Under the pieces are notes generated by a model. It was not told the origin of the DNA. It ran no database searches and worked only from the letters and a program-made list of their open reading frames with translations. Positions 2 through 11,520 of a stretch of 12,967 nt of DNA are shown here, piece after piece. The stretch is from the NCBI GenBank assembly GCA_016789245.1, contig JAEURM010000030.1:1-12967 (forward strand). Direction: 5' to 3'. Origin of the DNA: Anaerolineales bacterium (lineage in GTDB: Bacteria; Chloroflexota; Anaerolineae; Anaerolineales; UBA6663). The position numbers and the translations under genes are program-made. The first letter of the stretch is position 1; every line of letters starts with the position of its first letter.

Positions 2-238
2 GCTGGGCAATCGTTTGGCTCGGTGGAATCCGTCAAAGCGGCTTCGGAAGTTTACCTGCCGGTGGCGGGCAAAGTAACAGCCGTGAATGATGAACTGGCC
101 AGCAAGCCGGAACTAATTAACCAAGACCCTTACGGCGCAGGCTGGATTTTGAAAATTGAAATTACCGATGCCGGCAATTTGAGCAACCTGTTAGATGCCG
201 CCGCCTACCAAGCGCATTGCGAAGCGCGAAAACACTAA
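2..238 (+). CDS. gcvH: Glycine cleavage system H protein, C-terminal part (5' end outside window)
   Basis: H-protein is the lipoylated carrier that shuttles the aminomethyl group between P-, T- and L-proteins. The reading frame is open from base 2, so the gene begins upstream; 78 codons are visible of a family usually about 125-130 residues long. The lipoylation motif [10 protein letters not shown] is present, with the modified lysine encoded at 35-37. It is followed by the family's P-V-x-G-x-V-x-x-V-N hairpin ([11 protein letters not shown]), the NxDPYGxGW motif and the acidic-to-C-terminal helix ending at TAA 236-238. It is the first visible gene of a gcvH-gcvPA-gcvPB set on the same strand; gcvPA begins after a gap of at most about 60 bases. 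Identification is near certain. What is unknown is whether a separate gcvT lies upstream, which matters because a T-protein is fused to GlyA further right. Confidence 0.95.
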
Positions 239-241
239 ACC

Positions 242-273
242 ATTGAGTGATTGGCCGATTGGGTGATTATCAT
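242..273. repeat. 8-base tandem repeat (ATTGRSYG-like) between gcvH and gcvPA
   Basis: Three imperfect octamers (ATTGAGTG, ATTGGCCG, ATTGGGTG) and the start of a fourth (ATTATCAT) lie just after the gcvH stop. Both candidate upstream start codons for gcvPA (TTG 251, GTG 263) fall inside this repeat. That suggests the predicted extra N-terminal residues come from intergenic repeat DNA and are not real protein. Confidence 0.5.
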
Positions 274-1639
274 TCACACCCAGTGCCTCAATACTCCAAG
301 GAGTTACTATCCTCACACAGACCAAGACCGAGCCGAGATGCTGGCGGCGGTGGGCGTGAACAGCGTGGAAGAGCTGTTTGCCGATGTGCCCGCCAAGCAC
401 CGGTTCCCTAAACTCAATATCCCCGCCGGCCTTTCTGAAATGGAAACGTTAGCTGAACTGCGCTCCCTTTCTGAAGGCAACTTGCACGCGCAGAAAAATG
501 CTTGCTTCCTTGGGGCGGGCGCGTACCAGCACTTTAGCCCGTCCGTGGTGAATTACATGATTCAGCGCGGCGAATTTTTAACGGCGTACACGCCCTACCA
601 GCCGGAAGTTTCGCAAGGCACGCTCCAAGCCATTTATGAATACCAAAGCATGATTTGTGCGCTGACGGCAATGGATGTGGCGAATGCGTCTCACTACGAT
701 GGGGCCACGTCGGTGGCGGAAGCGGTGGTTATGGCCTTTCATCATCACCGTGAGAAGCGCAAGAAAGTTCTGCTCTCGCCCACGGTGCACCCACATTACC
801 GCCAAGTGGTACGCACGTATACCCAAGGCATGGGCCTAAAAGTTGTGGGTGACCATACCACCAGTGCGGATCTAAATGAACTCGTCAGCCAATTAGATTC
901 AGACACCATGATGCTGGTGGTGCAATCGCCTAACTTCTTAGGGCAGATTGAAGATTTGACCGGTTTAGCGGCCAAATGCCATGCGGTGGGCGCTCTGCTG
1001 TGCGTGGCCACCGAGCCGGTTTCACTGGGTTTGCTTAAGCCGCCCGGCCAGTATGGCGCGGATGTTGTTACGGGCGAAGGCCAATCCCTCGGTTTGCCGC
1101 TTTCTTTTGGTGGGCCGTATTTAGGCTTTTTTGCCACGCGCAAAGAATACGTGCGCAAGATGGCGGGCCGCTTGGTAGGCGAGGCGCATGATAAAAATGG
1201 CCAGCGAGGCTTTGTGCTCACCCTCTCCACCCGGGAGCAACACATCAAACGCGATAAGGCTACGTCCAACATCTGTACCAACCAAGGCTTAATGGCAATT
1301 GCGGCCACAGTGTATTTAGCCACCTTAGGCAAACAGGGCTTACGCCGGGTGGCCGAACTATGTTGGCACAAGAGCCACTACGCCGCGGAACGCATTGCGG
1401 AAATCCCCGGCTACAGCGTGGATACATCTAAGCCGTTCTTCCAAGAATTTATTGTGAAGTGCCCCAAGCCCGTCAAAGAAATCAATCACTTCTTGCTGAA
1501 CGAGCGCAACATCATTGGCGGCTATGACTTGGGCCAAGATTATGCCCACCTGCGCCAACACATGTTGGTGTGTGTGAGCGAGTTGAATTCCAGTGAAGAA
1601 ATTAGTGAGTTGGTGGAAGCGTTGAAGGAGATGGCGTAA
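251..1639 (+). CDS. gcvPA: Glycine dehydrogenase (decarboxylating) subunit 1, P-protein alpha
   Basis: This is the N-terminal-half subunit of the two-subunit glycine decarboxylase. With GcvPB it decarboxylates glycine through PLP and loads the aminomethyl group onto lipoyl-GcvH. Family signatures are clear: YYPHTDQDRAEML at the start (residues 19-31 of the 462-codon frame), FLGAGAYQHF (86-95), TAYTPYQPE (111-119), NASHYDGATS (145-153) and REQHIKRDKATSNICTNQ (328-345). The family is about 450 residues and normally starts one or two residues before the Y-x-P-H-T motif. Here the codon in that place is AGG (299-301), not ATG. The only in-frame initiators that keep the motif are TTG 251 and GTG 263, both in repeat-like DNA; ATG 338 would cut into the conserved N-terminus. 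A Shine-Dalgarno-like AAGGAG at 298-303 has no in-frame initiator behind it. The true start is therefore unresolved. The stop TAA overlaps the gcvPB ATG by one base, so the two are translationally coupled. Confidence 0.93.
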   Translation: MADWVIIIHTQCLNTPRSYYPHTDQDRAEMLAAVGVNSVEELFADVPAKHRFPKLNIPAGLSEMETLAELRSLSEGNLHAQKNACFLGAGAYQHFSPSVVNYMIQRGEFLTAYTPYQPEVSQGTLQAIYEYQSMICALTAMDVANASHYDGATSVAEAVVMAFHHHREKRKKVLLSPTVHPHYRQVVRTYTQGMGLKVVGDHTTSADLNELVSQLDSDTMMLVVQSPNFLGQIEDLTGLAAKCHAVGALLCVATEPVSLGLLKPPGQYGADVVTGEGQSLGLPLSFGGPYLGFFATRKEYVRKMAGRLVGEAHDKNGQRGFVLTLSTREQHIKRDKATSNICTNQGLMAIAATVYLATLGKQGLRRVAELCWHKSHYAAERIAEIPGYSVDTSKPFFQEFIVKCPKPVKEINHFLLNERNIIGGYDLGQDYAHLRQHMLVCVSELNSSEEISELVEALKEMA

Positions 1640-3120
1640 TGTCTCTTGAACCCCTAATCTATGATTTGAGCCGGCCGGGCCGGACCGGCATTAGTTTGCC
1701 GGATGCGGATGTGCCGGAAACGGCCTTTCCGGCGGATTTGCTCCGCAGTGAATTGGATTTGCCCGAAGTGGACCAACTGAGCGTGGTGCGCCACTTTACG
1801 CGGCTTTCGCAACTTAATTTTTCGATTGATACCCGCATGTATCCCCTCGGTTCTTGCACTATGAAGTACAACCCGCGGGTGAACGAAGATGCCGCGCGCC
1901 TGCCCGGCTTTGCGGCCAGCCATCCTATGCAAGACCCGGATACCATGCAGGGCAACCTGATGCTCATGTATCAATTGCAAGAGTGGCTGAAGGAAATTGG
2001 CGGCTTTGCGGGCGTGAGCTTGCAACCTGCGGCGGGCGCACACGGTGAACTGACCGGCGTACTAATGATGCGGGCCTACCACTTAGACCGAGGTGATATC
2101 AAGCGCACCAAAGTTCTTATTCCAAACTCGGCGCACGGCACGAACCCGGCCACCGCTAGCATGGCTGGCTTGGATGTGGTGGAACTGCCCTCCGATGCGC
2201 GCGGCAATGTGGATTTGAACGCTCTGCACCAGTACATTGCTGAACACGGCGCGGAAGTGGTGGGCTTGATGATTACCAACCCCAACACGCTGGGCTTGTT
2301 TGAAGAGCACGTGGAAGAAGTGGTGGCGGCCGTGCACGCTTGCGGCGGCTTGGTATATGGCGATGGCGCTAACATGAACGCCATTGTGGGCATTGTGCGC
2401 CCCGGTGATTTGGGCTTTGATGTTTTGCACTACAACCTGCACAAAACGTTCAGCACGCCGCATGGCGGTGGCGGGCCGGGTTCCGGGCCGGTGGGCGTTT
2501 CCGCGCGGCTGTTAGATTTTCTGCCCGGGCCAGTAGTGGGCATTCTGCCGGATAGCGAAAAAAGCAAGCCGCCGCATTACGGCTTTATCACGCCTAAAAA
2601 ATCTATTGGCCGCATGAAGGCTTTTTGGGGCAATTTTGGGATGCATGTGCGCGCGTACACTTACATGCGCGTACACGGGGCCAGCGGCTTGCGCGGCAAC
2701 TCGGAGTATGCCGTGCTAAACGCCAATTACTTGCTGAGCAAACTGCGCGGTAAGTGGAACGTGGCCTATGACCGGCTGTGCAAGCATGAATTTGTGCTGG
2801 AAGGCGTGTGGGCCGAAGTGCCCGGCGTGCACGCGCTGGATGTTTCTAAGCGGTTGATGGATTACAGTTTCCATCCGCCTACTAACTACTTCCCGCTGAT
2901 TGTGCGGGAGGCATTGATGATTGAACCAACCGAGACGGAAAACAAAGAGACGTTGGATCAATTTGCGGATGCGATGCTGAAGATTGCGGAGGAAGCGCAC
3001 ACGCAACCAGAATTACTAACGCAAGCCCCGCACACCACGCCCATCTCGCGGCTAGATGAAGTGAGCGCGGCCAAGCAGTTAGTGCTCTGTTGCCGGCCCA
3101 TTCCTGCATGGGCGGAATAA
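1639..3120 (+). CDS. gcvPB: Glycine dehydrogenase (decarboxylating) subunit 2, P-protein beta
   Basis: This is the catalytic PLP-binding subunit of the heteromeric P-protein. The 493 residues match the usual subunit-2 length of about 480-500. Visible signatures are YPLGSCTMKYNPR (68-80), the NSAHGTNPATA motif, the G-D-G-A-N-M-N-A motif, and the PLP site NLHKTFSTPHGGGGPG with Schiff-base Lys269 (codon 2443-2445). Near the C-terminus, FHPPTNYFPL and EPTETENKETLD are typical of the family. ATG 1639 is preceded by AAGGAG (1625-1630) at good spacing and overlaps the gcvPA stop (TAATG). The gene ends the gcv set, and a strong terminator follows within 35 bases. It is intact, with no missing key residues seen. 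The partner T-protein activity is on the opposite strand, fused to GlyA, about 4.5 kb to the right. Confidence 0.96.
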   Translation: MSLEPLIYDLSRPGRTGISLPDADVPETAFPADLLRSELDLPEVDQLSVVRHFTRLSQLNFSIDTRMYPLGSCTMKYNPRVNEDAARLPGFAASHPMQDPDTMQGNLMLMYQLQEWLKEIGGFAGVSLQPAAGAHGELTGVLMMRAYHLDRGDIKRTKVLIPNSAHGTNPATASMAGLDVVELPSDARGNVDLNALHQYIAEHGAEVVGLMITNPNTLGLFEEHVEEVVAAVHACGGLVYGDGANMNAIVGIVRPGDLGFDVLHYNLHKTFSTPHGGGGPGSGPVGVSARLLDFLPGPVVGILPDSEKSKPPHYGFITPKKSIGRMKAFWGNFGMHVRAYTYMRVHGASGLRGNSEYAVLNANYLLSKLRGKWNVAYDRLCKHEFVLEGVWAEVPGVHALDVSKRLMDYSFHPPTNYFPLIVREALMIEPTETENKETLDQFADAMLKIAEEAHTQPELLTQAPHTTPISRLDEVSAAKQLVLCCRPIPAWAE

Positions 3121-3346: not shown

Positions 3347-4603
3347 ATGGCTCGCAAATCCTCCGCACTCCTTCCTCTGCTCGCCGCATCGCTTTGCCTC
3401 AGCGCCTGTTTGCCGGAGGGCGTCAAACTCCCACAAGATGAATTCCTCGCATTCCTTGAACCAAAATCAGGTTTGATTGCCTACATCGGTGTAGATGGCA
3501 ACGTATATACCATTGATCAGGGCGGCGGCAACCAACAGCAACTCACTACGGATGCCGGCTCAGGGAGTGATGGCTACCGTTTGTATCGTTTGCCCACTTG
3601 GTCACCAGATGGCAACACGCTCGCCTTTAGCATGCTAGAAGCCGATATTGAGCAAAACCCCACTAAAAACAGCTTATTCACTGTAACAAGAGATGGCTCA
3701 GCCCTGACGGAGGCTTATAACGAAGGCGATGGCGTAGTGTATTACTACTGGGCGCCGGATAGTGAGCAGATTGGCGTGCTGGCGCAAACGCCGCGCACTT
3801 TGGCCCTACGACTGGTGCCAGCGGCTGGTGGAGAATTTCAAACGCTGGATACCGGCGCGCCCCTCTACTGGACGTGGGCGCCAGATAGCCGCTCGGTGCT
3901 AATCCATGCGGATGGCGAGCTGGGCCGCCTCTCCCTTTTGCAATTGGGTGAAACTATTTCTGAGCAAAGCTTAGGCATTACACCGGCGGAATTTAAAGCG
4001 CCGGCCTTTGCGCCTAATGGTGAGCAAGTGCTGGTGGCGCGCAAGAACAGTGATAATAAATCCTTAGTGCTGGCCAACTTAGATGGTAGTGAGGCGCGCA
4101 AGATTACGGATTACACCTCCGATATTGCTTTTGGCTGGAGCCCGGATGGCAAACGGATTGCGTATATTGAAAGCCAAGAATTAGTTGGCCCGCTCACTGT
4201 GGCCGATGCGGCGGGCACACAAGACCCTATCAAACTGGATGAGCAGGTGTATGCCTTCTTTTGGTCGCCGGATAGTAAATCGCTGGCGTATTTTGCGCTG
4301 GGTGAGATGGAACTAGAAAACGGTGAAAAAGGTACCGTCTCGCGGCTGAAGGTTTTAGATGTGGGCAGTGGCCGTGCCCGTGAAATTTCTATTGTCTTTC
4401 CCACACAAACATTTTTTGATTTGGTGCCGTACTTTGATCAATACCACCAATCACTAACGATTTGGAGCCCGGACAGCCAGAATTTGGTGGTGAGCACACA
4501 ATATAATAGTGATGCAACCGGCATTTTTGTGTTCAATGCTTCCGGCACACTAGAGCCGCGCTACATTGCTGATGGGGAAGTGGGATTTTGGTCTTGGAAA
4601 TAA
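3347..4603 (+). CDS. TolB-like beta-propeller lipoprotein (PD40/WD40-like repeats)
   Basis: This is a predicted exported lipoprotein of 418 residues. The N-terminus has basic residues (ARK), a hydrophobic stretch and a lipobox L-S-A-C with the modified Cys at position 21. The rest is a beta-propeller of TolB/PD40 type. Seven W-(S/A)-P-(D/N)-(G/S) blade motifs start at about residues 85, 135, 177, 221 (Phe instead of Trp), 264, 306 and 373, and a final short strand (GFWSWK) could close the ring with the N-terminal strand LIAYIGVDGNVYTID. No enzymatic domain is seen. Known propellers of this kind bind proteins or ligands at the cell surface; the partner here is unknown. It has its own possible promoter and is bounded by terminators on both sides, so it looks monocistronic. 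The gene is intact. It is probably not TolB itself, since no Tol-Pal genes are nearby and the N-terminal TolB domain is absent. Confidence 0.85.
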   Translation: MARKSSALLPLLAASLCLSACLPEGVKLPQDEFLAFLEPKSGLIAYIGVDGNVYTIDQGGGNQQQLTTDAGSGSDGYRLYRLPTWSPDGNTLAFSMLEADIEQNPTKNSLFTVTRDGSALTEAYNEGDGVVYYYWAPDSEQIGVLAQTPRTLALRLVPAAGGEFQTLDTGAPLYWTWAPDSRSVLIHADGELGRLSLLQLGETISEQSLGITPAEFKAPAFAPNGEQVLVARKNSDNKSLVLANLDGSEARKITDYTSDIAFGWSPDGKRIAYIESQELVGPLTVADAAGTQDPIKLDEQVYAFFWSPDSKSLAYFALGEMELENGEKGTVSRLKVLDVGSGRAREISIVFPTQTFFDLVPYFDQYHQSLTIWSPDSQNLVVSTQYNSDATGIFVFNASGTLEPRYIADGEVGFWSWK

Positions 4604-4749: not shown

Positions 4750-6777
4750 TTAGGCCGGTTCACTTCCGTGGCCGTTGGTGTGGCCGTTAGCCAAGGCGGC
4801 GTTTTTGGCTGGTTCAGCCGCAGATTTCTCAGGCTCCGTAGGTGGGCGGCGGGCGGCCATTTGTTGGGGGGTGGGCGGCACGGCCATCCGCACAGTTCCC
4901 CGGCCATTGGTATCAAACGTAGTGGCCTGCACCAGCACATCTTTGGCTTTGGCCAAAGACGGCGCTACTGCCGCCGGGGCGCTAAGGACGAGCGGTTTAG
5001 CTTGCGGCAAGCCAATCAACTTCAGTTCCGGCGGGAAAGCCGTTTCGCTGTGTTGCCAGCCGTTATCACCTAACAACGCCATTACTTCATCATGGGCTAA
5101 GCTATCTTTTTCTAACAAAGCTTGAGTAATGGCTTCCACTTCATTGGCGTGTTGCCGCAAAAGATTCTCCGTTTGTTCTTCCATAACGCGCCAGAAACGC
5201 TCTAGCATGGGGCCAGCGTATGGCGGGATGCCATCACCGCCACCGTTTTCCCAACCCATCACGGGCGGGCCAAAATAGCCAAAGGAATACAGCGCCCACA
5301 AATTTCTCCGGATGGAGCTGTTATCACCGGTTGCGCCCGTCCAATATTCGCCCATAAAGAGTTTAGTTGCCACATGCCCGGCCATCGCCACGATAATATC
5401 AGCGGCAATGCGGCGCAGTGGCTCGGCGTAAATTTCTACGCGGTCAACCGGCATCATGTAGCCCAGTGCCCCGCCACGGCGCACAATCGTCAACCGCACA
5501 ATGCGCTGATCGGGCATCACATAGTGTTGGGCAACGGCATGGCCCGCTTCGTGGTAGGCCACCTGCCGCCGTTGCTCGGGGTCAAATTCTTCAATCGGCT
5601 GTTCAATGCCTAAGGCTTGCTCTTGCAAAGCATCGTCAATATCGCGTTGGGCAATGGCATTGCGGCCTTTGAACATAGCAATCCGCACGGCATCTTTGGT
5701 GATGGCCGAAGCAATTTTAGCCGGCGTGGCGCGTGGTGTATCTTCCACAATCGCTTCAATGTTCACCGTCTCATCGTGTCTGATGCGTTTGAGATAGCCC
5801 CGGACGATTTCGCGGCGGCCGGCTTTATCGGGCCGGTCTACCTGAATCTTCATATCAAACCGGCCCGGGCGGAGCAGGGCGGCATCCAACACATCTGGCC
5901 GGTTGGTGGAACCCATAAAGAGCACATGCCAGTTGCGCTTGGGCGGCTCTTTGCCGATGAACTGGTACCACCGCGCGCGGAATTTTTCCCAGCGCGTTTG
6001 CTCTTCCACGCCGTCCATCTCATATAACAAACGCGTGAGTGCGCCGCTGGCACCTCCACCACCCATCATGCCCATCATATTGCCGCCGCCCATCACGCCG
6101 CCCCGGCTTTGGCCCACCGCATCAATTTCATCAATATAGGCAATGCACGCGCCATACTCACGGGCCAGCTTTTTAGCTTTGCCCACGTACTGAATCATGC
6201 GGAGCACATCTACGCCCCAGAACATGCCACGGAAGCCAGAGCCTTCTACGGAGATGAAAGGGATGCCGGCTTCACCGGCCATGGCTTTGGCCAACATTGT
6301 TTTGCCGGTGCCGGGCGGGCCGTACAGCAAAATACCGTTGATGTACCGGCCACCCATGCTCACAAACTGGTCTCGGTCAGAGAGGAGCGTAATCCACTGG
6401 CGCACCACTTTCACCAAGTTGGGCTGGCCCCAGTAATCTTTAAAGGAGAGGGACTTGGCATCTTCCGGCCGGATGCTTTCCATCTTGGTTTGGCTCATAA
6501 ACCAGAAGATGGCCACAAATTGGATAATGGCAAAGAAGAGCGCAAACGCCAAGCGTAAAGCAAACCCGAGAATGGTGAGGGTGATGTTGAGCACCACCGG
6601 GTTGACCCAACACCAAATGCCGAGGCCAATTAAAAACGCCCACGGCGCAATGGAGCGAATGGAGCGCCACAAGCGGGCCAGTGGCCGATTACGCCGGCTC
6701 ATAATGTCATTCTTGGATTTGGGCGGTTGTTGCCCAGTGGCAGGGGGCGTGCTAGGGGTGAGGGCCGTCTGTTCCAT
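4750..6777 (-). CDS. FtsH-like membrane AAA ATPase / zinc metalloprotease (divergent)
   Basis: This is a predicted inner-membrane ATP-dependent protease of 675 residues. Two hydrophobic segments at about 44-70 and 71-94 form a hairpin. The AAA module has Walker A GPPGTGKT (153-160), a pore loop around G-M-F-W-G-V (184-189), Walker B with D216/E217, and the second region of homology TNRPDVLDAALLRPGRFD with Arg303 and Arg306. The peptidase M41 domain has HEAGH (409-413), with a likely third zinc ligand D485 in the TGATGD motif. All catalytic elements of FtsH are present. It differs from canonical FtsH in four ways: no periplasmic domain, a Gly/Met-rich loop (226-242), an insertion of about 22 residues after MDGVEEQ (around 261-282), and a Pro/Ala-rich C-terminal tail from about 590 with an NGHTNGHG end. 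The start at 6777 has AAAGGA seven bases upstream; Met26 is a possible alternative. The bidirectional terminator at 4681-4712 lies beyond its 3' end. Substrates are unknown. Confidence 0.88.
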   Translation of the reverse strand: MEQTALTPSTPPATGQQPPKSKNDIMSRRNRPLARLWRSIRSIAPWAFLIGLGIWCWVNPVVLNITLTILGFALRLAFALFFAIIQFVAIFWFMSQTKMESIRPEDAKSLSFKDYWGQPNLVKVVRQWITLLSDRDQFVSMGGRYINGILLYGPPGTGKTMLAKAMAGEAGIPFISVEGSGFRGMFWGVDVLRMIQYVGKAKKLAREYGACIAYIDEIDAVGQSRGGVMGGGNMMGMMGGGGASGALTRLLYEMDGVEEQTRWEKFRARWYQFIGKEPPKRNWHVLFMGSTNRPDVLDAALLRPGRFDMKIQVDRPDKAGRREIVRGYLKRIRHDETVNIEAIVEDTPRATPAKIASAITKDAVRIAMFKGRNAIAQRDIDDALQEQALGIEQPIEEFDPEQRRQVAYHEAGHAVAQHYVMPDQRIVRLTIVRRGGALGYMMPVDRVEIYAEPLRRIAADIIVAMAGHVATKLFMGEYWTGATGDNSSIRRNLWALYSFGYFGPPVMGWENGGGDGIPPYAGPMLERFWRVMEEQTENLLRQHANEVEAITQALLEKDSLAHDEVMALLGDNGWQHSETAFPPELKLIGLPQAKPLVLSAPAAVAPSLAKAKDVLVQATTFDTNGRGTVRMAVPPTPQQMAARRPPTEPEKSAAEPAKNAALANGHTNGHGSEPA

Positions 6778-7579: not shown

Positions 7580-10500
7580 CTACTTTTTCTTCGGAAAACG
7601 GCTCACTACACTCGCCGCTTCGGGCGCGCGTACTTTGACGCCGCTGGCGGTGAGCGCGGCTTCCAGTTCGGCCTGAGTGCTTGGTTTGGGTGCGGCTTTG
7701 GTAAACGCTTCCGCCGCGCCTTGCCACACAGCAATGGCCGCACCTTCCGCGCCCGCGTTAAAATTCAGGTGCGCTTGCCCCAGCCGGAAGCCCTCACTAT
7801 CAATGGAACAGCACGTCACTTCGCCAATCACGTGGCCTTGGGCATCCGTCACCGGGTCACCGTTGTGGGCCATGCGCCCGCTCTTCTGCGTAAAACGGAA
7901 GCGCACCACCTCTCGCTTGCGCGCGCGCTCTTGGTTAAGGAACGCCGAACGGCCAATAAACCACGGCTTGTGCGCTTTCACGTAGCTATCAAAGCCAGAG
8001 TCACCCACGCCTAAATCTAGGCGGCCAGCCAATTCATCACCGTACAACGGCAAACCGGCCTCCGTGCGCAGTGAATCACGCGCGGCGAGGCCACACGGTT
8101 GCGCACCCGCCAGCACCAACGCGCTCCACAACTCCACCACGCGGCTGGGGTGCACAAACAACTCAAAGCCTATCAGTTCACCGGTATAGCCCGTGCGGGA
8201 AACGATTAGCTCGAATCCGCCGATGGTGGCGTAGCACACTTCCGTGCGCTTGAGTTTTGTGATTAGCGATTTGTTATGGGAGTCTGCGCCGAGGGCCAAT
8301 AAAATCTCGCGGCTCTTGGGGCCTTGCAGGGCAATATCCACGCGTTGGTCGGTGCCACTTTCCGGTGCGCGCAAATTGCGGAGCGTTACGCCGTGCCGCC
8401 CGGGGGCCGTGGCCCATTGCCGCTCGGCATCAATCATCACCTCGCCGCGTTGCACCGCCGTAATCCACGCCCAATCTTTATCATCATTGCTGGCGTTCAC
8501 CACTATTAAGAAATGGTCTAGCGCCAAGCAATACACGTAGCAATCATCATGCACGTGGCCGTTGGGCGCTAGCAGGTGCGAATATTGGCTTTCGCCCGGC
8601 TTGAGCGCGGTGGCTTCGTTGCCCGTCACTGCGTCTAAAAATTCGGCCGCGTCCGGGCCGCGCGCTTCCCACACGCCCATGTGGCTCACATCAAACAAGC
8701 CAGCGCCGGTGCGCGTGGCGGTGTGCTCAGCCAACACGCCGGTGTACTGCACTGGCATTTCCCAACCGGCAAACGGCACCATCTTGGCTCCCAAAGCGCG
8801 GTGCGTTTCATTCAGCCGCGTCATCTTCAGCGGCGCGTTGTCTATTTCCTTCCACTGAAACTGCGGCAGAGCAGGCGGCGTATCCACGGCCCACTTGCTC
8901 ATGCCCACAAAGTACGGCTTGGTTTGGTCTACGCCGTCTCCAGCAACTTTGGGCAGGGCGGCCACCGGCTTGGCCTCACGCACAATTACTGGGCCGGGGA
9001 GTTTGCGTTGCAAGTCCACCAAATCTGGCGCTACAAAACCATCGGATAAATCGCGCAACCAAGTGGTGATGAGCACCGCCTTATCCGTGGGAACGGTGAG
9101 CGCGTAATTGTTGCCGCGCCGTGTGAGCGCGCCTTCCACTTGGCCGCGAGGCGTATATAAGCGGCTGGCTTGGCTTTGGCCATCTTTCAATGCATACACA
9201 TCGCTGGCCGTAGCCCAGTACAAAAATTCATCCGCGCGCTCGCCCACCACTTCAATTTCACCAAATGGCCCGTTGGGCGCGGCATCATCTAAAAAGTAGA
9301 AGTGTGGATAACCGTGTTTCGGCGGCTCAAAATCAATGCCCACGCTGTGCGCCAAATCGCGCACTTTCAGTTTGACTTCATTGAAGGTTTCAAAATCAAT
9401 CTTGGCGCGGAACAAATCACCTTTGCGGCCCGGATATTTGTACGGCACACACGCCTTGAGAATCTGCGCAATGACATCGGCCAACGCATCAATTTCTTTT
9501 TCACGGAAGCCGCGTTGCGTAATCCACGGCGCACCAATGCGGATGCCGGACGGCGTGACGGCGCTTTTATCTCCGGGGATGGTGTTGCGGTTCACCACAA
9601 TGCCAGCGTTATCCAAAATGCGTGCGGCCACATCACCCATCAGCGGCGTGCCATCCGGCCCTTTTACAGATTTGCAATCTACGTTGAGCAAGTGACTTTC
9701 GGTGCCGCCAAACGGAATTTCAAACCCATGAGCCTTTAAGCGCTCACACAGTCGCGCGGCGTTCTTCACCGTTTGGTGTTGCAGTTCTTTCCACTGCGGT
9801 GATTGCGCAATCTTGAAGGTGGCGGCGAGGGCGGCAAACACATTCACGTGCGGGCCACCTTGCTCACCGGGGAATACGGCGCGGTCAATCTTCTTAGCCA
9901 GTGCGGCATCATGCGTGATGATGCAAGCGCCGCGTGGGCCGTTGAGCGTTTTGTGCGTGGTGAAGGTGACGATGTGCGCAATGCCCACCGGCGAGGGATA
10001 CGCGCCGGCCGCAATCAGACCGGCCACATGCGCCATATCCGCCAGCAGGTACGCGCCCACTGAATCGGCAATCTCACGGAAGCGCTTGAAATCCGCCATC
10101 CACGGATACGAAGAGTAGCCCACAATAATCATCTTGGGCTTGTGCTCTTGCGCCAGCCGCGCCACTTCATCCATATCAATGCGGCCCGTGGCGGGGTTCA
10201 CATCATAAGAAACAATCTTGTAATACTTGCCAGAGCGGTTAGCCGCTGAGCCGTGTGTGAGGTGGCCCCCAAACAGCAAGTTCATGCCCATCACGGTATC
10301 ACCCGGCGTTACCAGCGCGTTGTACACGGCGTTGTTGGCGGGCGCGCCGGAGAGCGCTTGCACGTTCACATATAACTGGTTCGCCGTTAGGCCGTTGGCG
10401 GCAAACGCTTCCGCGCAACGCCGCCGCGCCAGAGATTCAATCAGGTTGGCGTACTCAGTACCCTTGTAGTAGCGCGGGTCACTGTAGCGTCGGAACTGCG

Positions 10501-10744
10501 TCAGCCGCGCTTCGTAATCCAAAATCTCGCCGTCCGTCATCCAGCGCGTTTCATCATCCGGGTAGCCTTCGGCGTACAAATTGTGAAAGCGCGTGCTCAG
10601 CGCTTCTAACACTGCTTGCGGCGCTGTGCTTTCAGAGGGGATGAGAATTAATTTGTGATACTGACGTTCGGCTTCAATCTGAGCCAGTTCATAAACATCG
10701 GGGTCAATATCGCGTAAAGAGCCACGGAAGAGAGAATCAGACAT
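7580..10744 (-). CDS. GlyA-GcvT fusion: serine hydroxymethyltransferase + aminomethyltransferase (T-protein)
   Basis: A single 1054-codon frame joins two folate enzymes of the serine-glycine cycle. Residues 1-472 are SHMT: YAEGYP (57-62), RYYKGTEY (91-98), SGAPAN (132-137), GGHLTHG (159-165), Asp236/His239, PLP lysine Lys265 in TTHKTLNGPRG, and SGIRIG with carboxylate-binding Arg402. A 28-residue insertion (63-90) separates YAEGYP from RYY, which are adjacent in most SHMTs. Residues 641 to about 1015 are GcvT: ALGAKMVPFAGWEMPVQY, GLFDVSHMG, the catalytic Asp pair 733/734 in GHVHDDCYVY, ALQGPKS, SRTGYTGE and GLAARDSLRTEAGLPLYGDEL. Both active sites look intact. The 475-590 linker resembles the N-terminal part of GcvT without the Asp pair. 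The start at 10744 has GGAG five bases upstream, and a clean sigma-70 promoter lies above. In a cell, SHMT and T-protein share 5,10-methylene-THF, so the fusion could channel folate; that is inference. No frame break is seen, so an assembly artefact is unlikely. Confidence 0.95.
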   Translation of the reverse strand: MSDSLFRGSLRDIDPDVYELAQIEAERQYHKLILIPSESTAPQAVLEALSTRFHNLYAEGYPDDETRWMTDGEILDYEARLTQFRRYSDPRYYKGTEYANLIESLARRRCAEAFAANGLTANQLYVNVQALSGAPANNAVYNALVTPGDTVMGMNLLFGGHLTHGSAANRSGKYYKIVSYDVNPATGRIDMDEVARLAQEHKPKMIIVGYSSYPWMADFKRFREIADSVGAYLLADMAHVAGLIAAGAYPSPVGIAHIVTFTTHKTLNGPRGACIITHDAALAKKIDRAVFPGEQGGPHVNVFAALAATFKIAQSPQWKELQHQTVKNAARLCERLKAHGFEIPFGGTESHLLNVDCKSVKGPDGTPLMGDVAARILDNAGIVVNRNTIPGDKSAVTPSGIRIGAPWITQRGFREKEIDALADVIAQILKACVPYKYPGRKGDLFRAKIDFETFNEVKLKVRDLAHSVGIDFEPPKHGYPHFYFLDDAAPNGPFGEIEVVGERADEFLYWATASDVYALKDGQSQASRLYTPRGQVEGALTRRGNNYALTVPTDKAVLITTWLRDLSDGFVAPDLVDLQRKLPGPVIVREAKPVAALPKVAGDGVDQTKPYFVGMSKWAVDTPPALPQFQWKEIDNAPLKMTRLNETHRALGAKMVPFAGWEMPVQYTGVLAEHTATRTGAGLFDVSHMGVWEARGPDAAEFLDAVTGNEATALKPGESQYSHLLAPNGHVHDDCYVYCLALDHFLIVVNASNDDKDWAWITAVQRGEVMIDAERQWATAPGRHGVTLRNLRAPESGTDQRVDIALQGPKSREILLALGADSHNKSLITKLKRTEVCYATIGGFELIVSRTGYTGELIGFELFVHPSRVVELWSALVLAGAQPCGLAARDSLRTEAGLPLYGDELAGRLDLGVGDSGFDSYVKAHKPWFIGRSAFLNQERARKREVVRFRFTQKSGRMAHNGDPVTDAQGHVIGEVTCCSIDSEGFRLGQAHLNFNAGAEGAAIAVWQGAAEAFTKAAPKPSTQAELEAALTASGVKVRAPEAASVVSRFPKKK

Positions 10745-10811: not shown

Positions 10812-10970
10812 GGAAATGGATGTTTGAGATGGAACGCAAGGGTCTTTTGGCGCTGGGCTTGGTCATTAGCCAAAGTCTACAAAATGATACGGTCTCGTTT
10901 CTCCCAGCGGGCCAACTGGTGGCAGTGAATAAGCCTTGCCCAAGCTGAAAGATTCCGCCCAGTTCCGCAT

Positions 10971-10976
10971 TAAACT
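10971..10976 (+). promoter_or_regulatory. Possible -10 element of the ECF sigma gene, perhaps leaderless
   Basis: TAAACT lies seven bases before ATG 10984, the distance expected if transcription starts at or next to the start codon. No Shine-Dalgarno precedes that ATG, in keeping with a leaderless message. No standard -35 is seen. Two TTCCGC copies (10953-10958 and 10963-10968), ten bases apart, sit just upstream and could be a regulator site. The rest of the 10745-10983 gap contains only the glyA-gcvT promoter. Confidence 0.3.
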
Positions 10977-10983
10977 AGTGCTT

Positions 10984-11520
10984 ATGAATGATGAACCGGA
11001 ACTTATCCGGCAGGCGCAGAAAGACCCGCAGGCGTTTGGCTGGCTATATGACCGTTATGTGCGGCGGATTTATGCCTTTGTGTATCACCGCTGTGGCGAT
11101 AGTGCGGTGACGCAGGATGTAACCGCCGCCACCTTTGAGAAGGCTTTGCAAAACATAGGCCGCTTTCGGTGGCAGGGCGTGGCCTTTGGCGCATGGCTGT
11201 ACCGCATTGCACGCAATGAGTTGAACGGGCACTACCGGCGCGAACGCCACACTCAGGATGTGGATTGGCGCGTGCTAGAAACGCACATCGCGCCCAGCCG
11301 CAACGGCAAGCATGATGCTCTGCACGCCGCGTTCGGCGCACTGCCGGATGATGACCGGGAACTGCTCACCCTGCGCTTTTTTGAAGATTTATCCAGCACT
11401 GAAGTGGCCGAGGTACTCAATACATCGGTGAGCAATATTTACGTGCGCGTGCATCGCGCCCTGCAACGGCTCCGGGTGGAAATAGAGAAGTTAGAAACTG
11501 TGGAGGCTGACCATGTCTAA
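10984..11520 (+). CDS. ECF-type RNA polymerase sigma factor
   Basis: This small sigma-70-family protein of 178 residues has only regions 2 and 4, the ECF layout. Region 2 runs about 18-86, with FGWLYDRYVRRIYAFVY and the core-binding helix ending in TFEKALQNIGRF, then AWLYRIARNELNGHYRR. Region 4 runs about 115-165, with LPDDDRELLTLRFFEDLSSTEVAEVL and the recognition helix SVSNIYVRVHRALQRLR. ATG 10984 is preferred over an upstream in-frame TTG (10936), because it gives the usual 6-15 residues before region 2 and the TTG extension is not conserved-looking. Its last eight bases overlap the next gene, which encodes a membrane protein, the normal arrangement of an ECF factor and its anti-sigma. Region 1.1 and the region 3 linker are absent, as expected. 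The regulon and inducing signal cannot be told. Confidence 0.9.
   Translation: MNDEPELIRQAQKDPQAFGWLYDRYVRRIYAFVYHRCGDSAVTQDVTAATFEKALQNIGRFRWQGVAFGAWLYRIARNELNGHYRRERHTQDVDWRVLETHIAPSRNGKHDALHAAFGALPDDDRELLTLRFFEDLSSTEVAEVLNTSVSNIYVRVHRALQRLRVEIEKLETVEADHV

Follow-up and report, generated by a model that had tools for sequence, protein, structure and literature searches.

A reduced T-protein copy, probably structural, between serine hydroxymethyltransferase and GcvT in a fusion protein of Chloroflexota

A 12,967-nucleotide stretch of DNA from an Anaerolineales bacterium (GenBank assembly GCA_016789245.1, contig JAEURM010000030.1), referred to hereafter as the window, encodes on its minus strand a fusion of serine hydroxymethyltransferase (SHMT) and the T-protein of the glycine cleavage system (GcvT). 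The region between the two enzymes, referred to as the linker, is the subject of this report. We conclude that the linker is very probably both the remains of a duplicated T-protein and a part with a non-catalytic, structural role. The origin follows from its homology to GcvT and from the existence of relatives with two GcvT copies in tandem, while repeated reduction follows from the presence of full forms among the short ones. An earlier sequence-only reading of the window had suggested that the linker arose by internal duplication or is what is left of an older GcvT, one that lost catalysis and took on the role of spacer, dimer interface or folate-gating domain; profile and fold comparisons back the idea of a relic, and relatives with a near-complete first copy do so decisively. 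We use 'first copy' for the GcvT-derived part between SHMT and the last GcvT, and 'second copy' for the last GcvT itself. The parts of the fusion gene are as follows.

7580..10744, minus strand: coding sequence of the fusion, SHMT, putative pseudo-GcvT piece and GcvT, 1054 residues
9320..10744, minus strand: SHMT module, residues 1-475 (PF00464, E 5.7e-128)
8825..9319, minus strand: interdomain region (linker), residues 476-640 (profile comparisons, predicted models)
8975..9265, minus strand: piece 1 of GcvT subdomain 2, residues 494-590, predicted strand-helix-three strands-helix (hhalign E 1.9e-10, models, fold matches)
9131..9136, minus strand: E537-G538, where GcvT has its Asp pair (Escherichia coli D97, D98)
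9023..9061, minus strand: signature WLRDLSDGFVAPD, residues 562-574, specific to first copies
8981..9007, minus strand: RKLPGPVIV, residues 580-588, second conserved signature
8921..8974, minus strand: junction, residues 591-608, variable; apparent place of the removed second part of subdomain 1 (LSDG-to-KPYFIG distances)
8903..8920, minus strand: KPYFVG, residues 609-614, probable piece 2 of subdomain 2, counterpart of KPWFIG (926-931) in the real GcvT (weak hhalign alignment, VIA range)
8852..8869, minus strand: LPQFQW, residues 626-631, a possible remnant (first strand) of the lost C-terminal barrel (compare VVRFRF in the real GcvT; weak hhalign alignment, conservation)
7583..8824, minus strand: complete GcvT (T-protein), residues 641-1054 (PF01571, E 2.4e-80)
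8543..8548, minus strand: intact Asp pair D733-D734 of the real GcvT

Similarity of the linker to GcvT

Residues 495-536 of the linker and residues 690-731 of the fused GcvT share 19 of 42 positions without a gap. This exact recount agreed with the number first obtained by hand, and the pair was the best of 454,581 ungapped 42-residue self-comparisons made at least 60 residues apart. Local alignment of the linker (476-640) with GcvT (641-1020) gave a score of 74, as compared with a mean of 31.6 (standard deviation 4.7, maximum 54) for 1000 shuffled linkers aligned with the same part of GcvT. The linker alone matched PF01571 (GCV_T) at E 5.2e-6, its 26.3 bits being narrowly above the curated cut-off of 25.6.

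For the linker and GcvT profiles we used 181 fusions (set A), which comprised those 104 of 121 proteins that reach 990 residues (120 of 237 matches were listed) and 77 of 80 loci, all picked for similarity to the window protein. This set also served for the Asp-pair counts, SHMT invariance and identity means given below. The linker profile matched the GcvT profile of the same fusions over residues 495-590 with a probability of 96.9 and E 1.9e-10 (hhalign). A second, weak alignment (probability 29, E 5.8e-4) covered KPYFVG and LPQFQW. An origin from SHMT was ruled out (profile comparison E 0.24), as was an unrelated family: Pfam and NCBIfam scans with the linker alone returned GcvT families only. 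A single-sequence search of the PDB with the linker found one chain, a GcvT, at E 0.024. A profile search found ten chains at E 10 or below, of which six were aminomethyltransferases; the other four, two designed proteins and two trimethylamine N-oxide demethylases, all had E above 0.1. The resemblance of the linker to GcvT is real and far beyond chance.

The sequence-only reading had proposed a profile-profile alignment and a structural overlay, and had held that an unrelated family or a fold unlike GCV_T would speak against it. Neither was seen: the linker matched its own GcvT in the profile comparison above, and the best fold matches of the linker model were GcvT-type structures. The VIA range of linker model residues 22-155 corresponded to residues 49-279 of 1yx2. 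The range for a structure of human dimethylglycine dehydrogenase (DMGDH) ended at model residue 150 and chain residue 761, and PMC5082570 assigns residues 538-625 and 729-770 of the human DMGDH folate domain to subdomain 2. The predicted structure of the linker thus has the fold of GcvT subdomain 2. The three-subdomain cloverleaf of GcvT is absent from it, the 166 residues between SHMT and GcvT holding subdomain 2 and a trace only. A model of the full-length fusion had a pLDDT (predicted local distance difference test) of 90.8 and a pTM (predicted template modelling score) of 0.85, and points to a defined domain arrangement in the predicted protein.

The linker resembles the two sequence pieces of GcvT subdomain 2 (approximately residues 494-590 and 600-631), with the remainder removed. 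The claim of a second T-protein domain therefore stands as to its homology, but the matching part is subdomain 2 rather than the N-terminal domain. Likewise, the similarity had been traced to about residue 590; residues 494-590 were matched, but the piece appears to extend to about residue 631.

As had been noticed, the Asp pair of GcvT (D733-D734) is replaced by Glu-Gly in the linker (E537-G538). Over set A, the position of E. coli D97 is Glu in 88 linkers and still Asp in 37, and 172 of 181 have Gly or Ala in place of D98; both Asp residues are kept in the real GcvT of all 181 fusions. The linker does not carry the catalytic combination of GcvT, D97 with its neighbour D98. In residues 641-1054 of the window protein, all 11 positions that we checked are as in E. 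coli GcvT (H51, Y85, D97, D98, N114, Q148, Y189, E192, R224, R228 and E230 in E. coli numbering, chosen by conservation).

Two signatures mark the linker itself. These were counted, along with the 11 positions in second copies and the LSDG-to-KPYFIG distances, in a different set that also numbers 181 (pool B: proteins of at least 960 residues plus fused frames from fetched loci, one protein being included twice, as P0122 and L125; here P labels denote proteins, L labels frames from loci and G labels genomes). A loose form of WLRxLSDGY was found in 178 of 183 interdomain segments, and at the matching place in none of 181 second copies and none of 21 standalone GcvT frames. A GP-x-x-V-like pattern was found in 172 of the 183 segments. 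In the fusions, GYPHF, WLRDLSDG, GP and KP are nearly invariant in the linker, while its tail (591-640) differs in length and sequence. Mean identity to the window protein over set A was 52% for the linker, 70% for SHMT and 63-67% for GcvT.

Median dN/dS (the ratio of non-synonymous to synonymous substitution rates), taken from the 17-20 usable of 23 locus pairs above 80% identity, was 0.073 for residues 477-590, 0.156 for residues 591-640, 0.031 for SHMT and 0.028 for GcvT. A median of 0.073 indicates that the linker is not in neutral decay. The word 'decayed' used for it earlier is thus apt for the catalytic positions, but not for the piece as a whole, for which a fold is predicted and purifying selection is seen. 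With enzyme homology, altered catalytic positions and a constrained sequence, the linker has the features expected of a pseudoenzyme, as far as sequence can tell.

Duplicated copies and their reduction

When 151 genomes of the phylum were searched with a profile, matches were found in 65, many of them to plain GcvTs. By reading of the match table, with the architecture checked, the fusion was present in 31 of the 151 genomes (the copy in G133 is cut by a contig end) and a split form in two. The fusion L125 of genome G020 has a first GcvT copy that matches positions 1-297 of 345 of the GcvT profile and positions 2-237 of 255 of Pfam GCV_T (151.8 bits). A protein search with this copy returned 72 proteins, 22 of which have a near-complete first copy (profile span above 270), consisting of subdomains 1 and 2, and a complete second copy. 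P0152 and P0160 combine a near-complete first copy with a cut second one; in further proteins the first copy lacks its start and middle. The C-terminal barrel is absent even from the near-complete first copies, in which the profile match ends at position 314 or before. Counting Pfam GCV_T stretches as evidence of a second copy was dropped; the window protein and the tandem forms both give two. The two kinds are told apart by the match of the G020 first copy to positions 2-237. The tandem-type P0152 is named by its source as Candidatus Poribacteria, so that the tandem form may reach beyond Chloroflexota. A tandem-type and a linker-type fusion (L126 and L127) occur in one assembly of about 6.9 Mb (G014), which is possibly mixed.

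In all 22 near-complete first copies, H51 is changed to Asp and Y85 and Q148 are lost, while D97, D98 and the residues K, F and G of columns 259, 264 and 266 are kept. Because these copies are already altered at near-invariant positions, the active site changed before subdomains were removed. The near-complete first copies are probably inactive. The removal itself is visible in the LSDG-to-KPYFIG distance, which was 130-159 residues in 19 and 30-69 residues in 120 of the 139 segments with both patterns.

The 22 near-complete first copies formed one clade (SH-aLRT, an approximate likelihood ratio test of branches, 100) on a long branch. Among linker-form second copies, 17 of 18 formed a clade with the two split-form GcvTs (100), and the eighteenth, P0148, grouped with the tandem forms P0134-P0136 (99). 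In a tree built from SHMT and the second copy, P0148 and P0144 joined three and two full forms, respectively (100 each). Full and short forms were interspersed in this tree, for example 13 full and 31 short in a group of 58 (SH-aLRT 99), and at least nine changes between full-or-partial and short forms were needed; partial forms were counted as full, long subdomain-2 forms (such as P0144, L128 and L129) as short, and L126 was labelled full by hand though its profile match starts at position 35. In a reduced set, from which 25 of 84 rows had been dropped for long or unstable branches and for thinning, at least five changes were required, and the hypothesis that the short forms arose only once was rejected (approximately unbiased test, p 8.9e-95), although that test presumes a group named before the tree is seen and here the group was named afterwards. 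Since full forms lie among short ones and lost sequence is not expected to regrow, the ancestors concerned were full and reduction took place repeatedly, an uncertain number of times, whatever the root.

The stretch from W124 to G149 (E. coli numbering) bears on the source of the first copy. Its length is 41-49 residues among the 22 first copies, 46-49 among 40 second copies and 24-29 in 19 of the 22 rows labelled standalone; in the other three rows it is 32 and 34 (the split-form GcvTs) and 55 (L141, an aberrant frame). The long stretch, with about 20 extra residues, is thus common to both copies, which favours duplication of the fused GcvT. It argues against separate recruitment of the piece from another GcvT-family protein, as it is unlike 19 of the 22 standalone rows. 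Separate recruitment would fit the position of the first copies as a clade of their own on a long branch, and a tree of three groups that lacks a distant outgroup is unable to show first and second copies as sisters; we nevertheless regard it as quite improbable. L141, from G035, is a standalone GcvT-like frame with an odd alignment after its first part and a long branch, and is possibly interrupted.

Two genomes carry the split form. In L135 (G141) and L136 (G037) the SHMT frame stops directly behind GPVxV or its counterpart. GcvT has a gene of its own there, adjacent in G141 and on a different contig in G037. The linker profile detected the GcvT-derived piece in these SHMT proteins at 70.7 and 57.2 bits, respectively. 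As the split-form GcvTs fall among fused second copies, L135 and L136 look like fissions. P0112 and P0193 were considered as natural SHMT-plus-linker proteins and rejected by eye, their ends resembling frame-shifted GcvT. A further 77 short standalone proteins have only the piece, many of which also include parts of the end of SHMT or the beginning of GcvT, and were not counted as evidence. Four of these (P0202, P0211, P0217 and P0236) lie on contigs of 190 kb to 1.4 Mb; such proteins may be fragments of interrupted genes or proteins in their own right.

All 11 checked positions were kept in 176 of 181 second copies. One position was changed in P0159 and two in P0173, and the second copies of L133, L137 and L134 had lost nine, nine and five, respectively. 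A separate GcvT is present in each of the genomes of these last three (G086, G126 and G113); the one aligned, L158 of G086, keeps all 11 positions. The fusion is the only SHMT found in G086 and G126, while G113 has two more. In five of five further genomes checked, no SHMT or GCV_T match other than the fusion was found.

Several points count against the account given so far. A stricter form of WLRxLSDGY was found in 153 of 183 segments and missed 30. The linker-form second copies sit among tandem-form second copies by branches supported at only 87-91. In the tree of SHMT and second copies the first branch is that of P0175, a short form with a long branch, and five more short forms (L132, L133, L137, L134 and P0166) are unresolved near the base; these six were among the rows dropped before the single-origin test. 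Pfam GCV_T gave no match at E 0.01 in the L135 and L136 SHMT proteins. The near-complete first copies may still bind folate, judging from the retention of D97 in all 22. The trees were quick ones with long-branch warnings, and most of the sequences come from metagenome assemblies.

Possible roles of the retained piece

The sequences support the following course of events. SHMT-GcvT-GcvT proteins exist, and their first GcvT is altered at invariant positions although it is almost complete. Elsewhere, the first copy has lost subdomains 1 and 3, with both pieces of subdomain 2 now joined. This reduction took place more than once, and in the large clade of the window protein it has yielded a conserved domain of some 130 residues whose fold is predicted with confidence. 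This domain may pack on SHMT via the first-copy motifs WLRxLSDGY and RKxxGPV and, as a non-catalytic structural module, may hold the real T-protein fixed beside SHMT. Methylene-tetrahydrofolate from the T-protein could then feed serine synthesis by SHMT, and the reverse. Such folate transfer between the two enzymes is plausible from the chemistry and by analogy with channelling in dimethylglycine oxidase (DMGO) and DMGDH, and we consider it somewhat less likely than not.

Most likely, the piece serves as a structural or docking module of SHMT. Docking on SHMT is preferred over docking on the fused T-protein because the module survives where the fused T-protein has been lost, a preference that depends mainly on the two split genomes. 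A coupling analysis of 258 proteins (effective number 149) paired SHMT residue 379 with linker residue 570, inside the WLRxLSDGY signature, in eight of eight subsamples, and residue 78 with residue 589 in seven of eight. The neighbour-support control for these couplings was negative, with six pairs as compared with a shuffled mean of 5.0 and 428 of 1000 shuffles as high, and the pairs are a hint of SHMT contact only.

Alternatively, the piece, alone or paired across the SHMT dimer in the manner proposed for the related N-terminal domain of MnmE, might bind tetrahydrofolate or steer it between active sites. The short forms, however, have D97 mostly replaced and D98 almost always Gly or Ala, with subdomains 1 and 3 gone, and the MnmE matches lie in a range that may reflect a common arrangement only. 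We consider such folate handling rather unlikely. The piece might also have inherited from its T-protein ancestor a docking site for another glycine-cleavage protein, the H- or P-protein. T-proteins bind H-protein (PDB titles include such complexes), H-protein is encoded in 14 of 14 genomes checked, and the end of a GcvH-like protein and both P-protein genes lie in the window itself. H-protein also accompanies ordinary GcvT, however, so its presence says little, and this role is in our estimation unlikely.

A passive spacer, for which any sequence of that length would suffice, would fit the position between two enzymes and the variable tail, but is highly improbable given the low dN/dS of residues 477-590, the near-invariant WLRDLSDG, GP and KP, and the two genomes that keep the piece at the end of SHMT without an attached GcvT.

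Returning to docking on SHMT, we tentatively put forward a broader suggestion, which we think less probable than not: in Chloroflexota, and possibly beyond, SHMT may repeatedly have taken T-proteins as non-catalytic parts, a first GcvT being reduced on more than one occasion towards the same two-piece subdomain, turned into a specific SHMT docking or folate-transfer module, and in some lineages the second GcvT may be following while a separate GcvT takes over catalysis. If this is true, evolution would have singled out the smallest part of the T-protein that SHMT requires for coupling.

Pseudoenzymes are usually seen as end points only. Here, living relatives show near-complete, partial, single-subdomain and split forms, with reduction repeated across lineages. 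The series makes it possible to test how a structural part can arise from an enzyme, and which portion of the T-protein is important for SHMT. The case also bears on direct passage of methylene-tetrahydrofolate from glycine cleavage to serine synthesis in genomes where the fusion is the only SHMT and T-protein found.

Neighbouring genes and comparison with known systems

The following genes of the glycine cleavage system also lie in the window.

2..238, plus strand: GcvH-like protein, C-terminal part, truncated at the start of the window (ESVKA motif, named by eye)
251..1639, plus strand: gcvPA, glycine decarboxylase subunit 1; the true start may be downstream (PF02347)
1639..3120, plus strand: gcvPB, glycine decarboxylase subunit 2 (PF21478, PF02347)

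The P and H parts of the glycine cleavage system are therefore encoded near the fusion. Three other proteins were given likely identities by eye: a 418-residue protein (3347-4603, plus strand) with a lipoprotein-like start and repeated SPD motifs as in a TolB-type propeller; a 675-residue protein similar to an FtsH-type AAA+ membrane protease (4750-6777, minus strand; Walker A GPPGTGKT, HEAGH); and a 194-residue protein similar to a sigma-70 family factor of the extracytoplasmic function (ECF) type (10936-11520, plus strand).

Database names for the fusion proteins are glycine or serine hydroxymethyltransferase or GcvT, and their Pfam annotation already includes GCV_T. Searches limited to open-licence PMC papers turned up no description of an SHMT-GcvT fusion or of a pseudo-GcvT, which is weak evidence of novelty.

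As compared with GcvT (PF01571, TIGR00528), the linker shares the sequence and predicted fold of subdomain 2 and probably the K-x-x-F-I-G segment. Unlike GcvT, it has neither subdomain 1 nor the barrel and its Asp pair is changed; it has instead WLRxLSDGY, absent from the standalone frames and second copies, and RKxxGPV. The N-terminal domain of MnmE (TrmE) is a much weaker structural match to the linker than GcvT, and gave no sequence match in the Pfam, NCBIfam and single-sequence PDB searches.

The N-terminal module of the fusion is that of SHMT (PF00464; PRK00011-like), to which the fusion adds a C-terminal GcvT-derived piece and GcvT. Residues 1-475 are placed in SHMT by the PF00464 profile and by K265, which we take to be the pyridoxal phosphate lysine; the module of the window protein is also over the NCBIfam PRK00011 cut-off, and H264 and K265 are invariant in 181 of 181 fusions.

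A GcvT-type module is likewise fused to another enzyme in dimethylglycine dehydrogenase and oxidase, in the alpha subunit of sarcosine oxidase and in trimethylamine N-oxide demethylase. In DMGO and DMGDH, the intermediate is channelled to the folate site through an internal cavity (PMC5082570). All of these enzymes have one complete GcvT-type module, whereas in the fusion described here a reduced and apparently dead copy precedes a complete GcvT, and the partner is SHMT.
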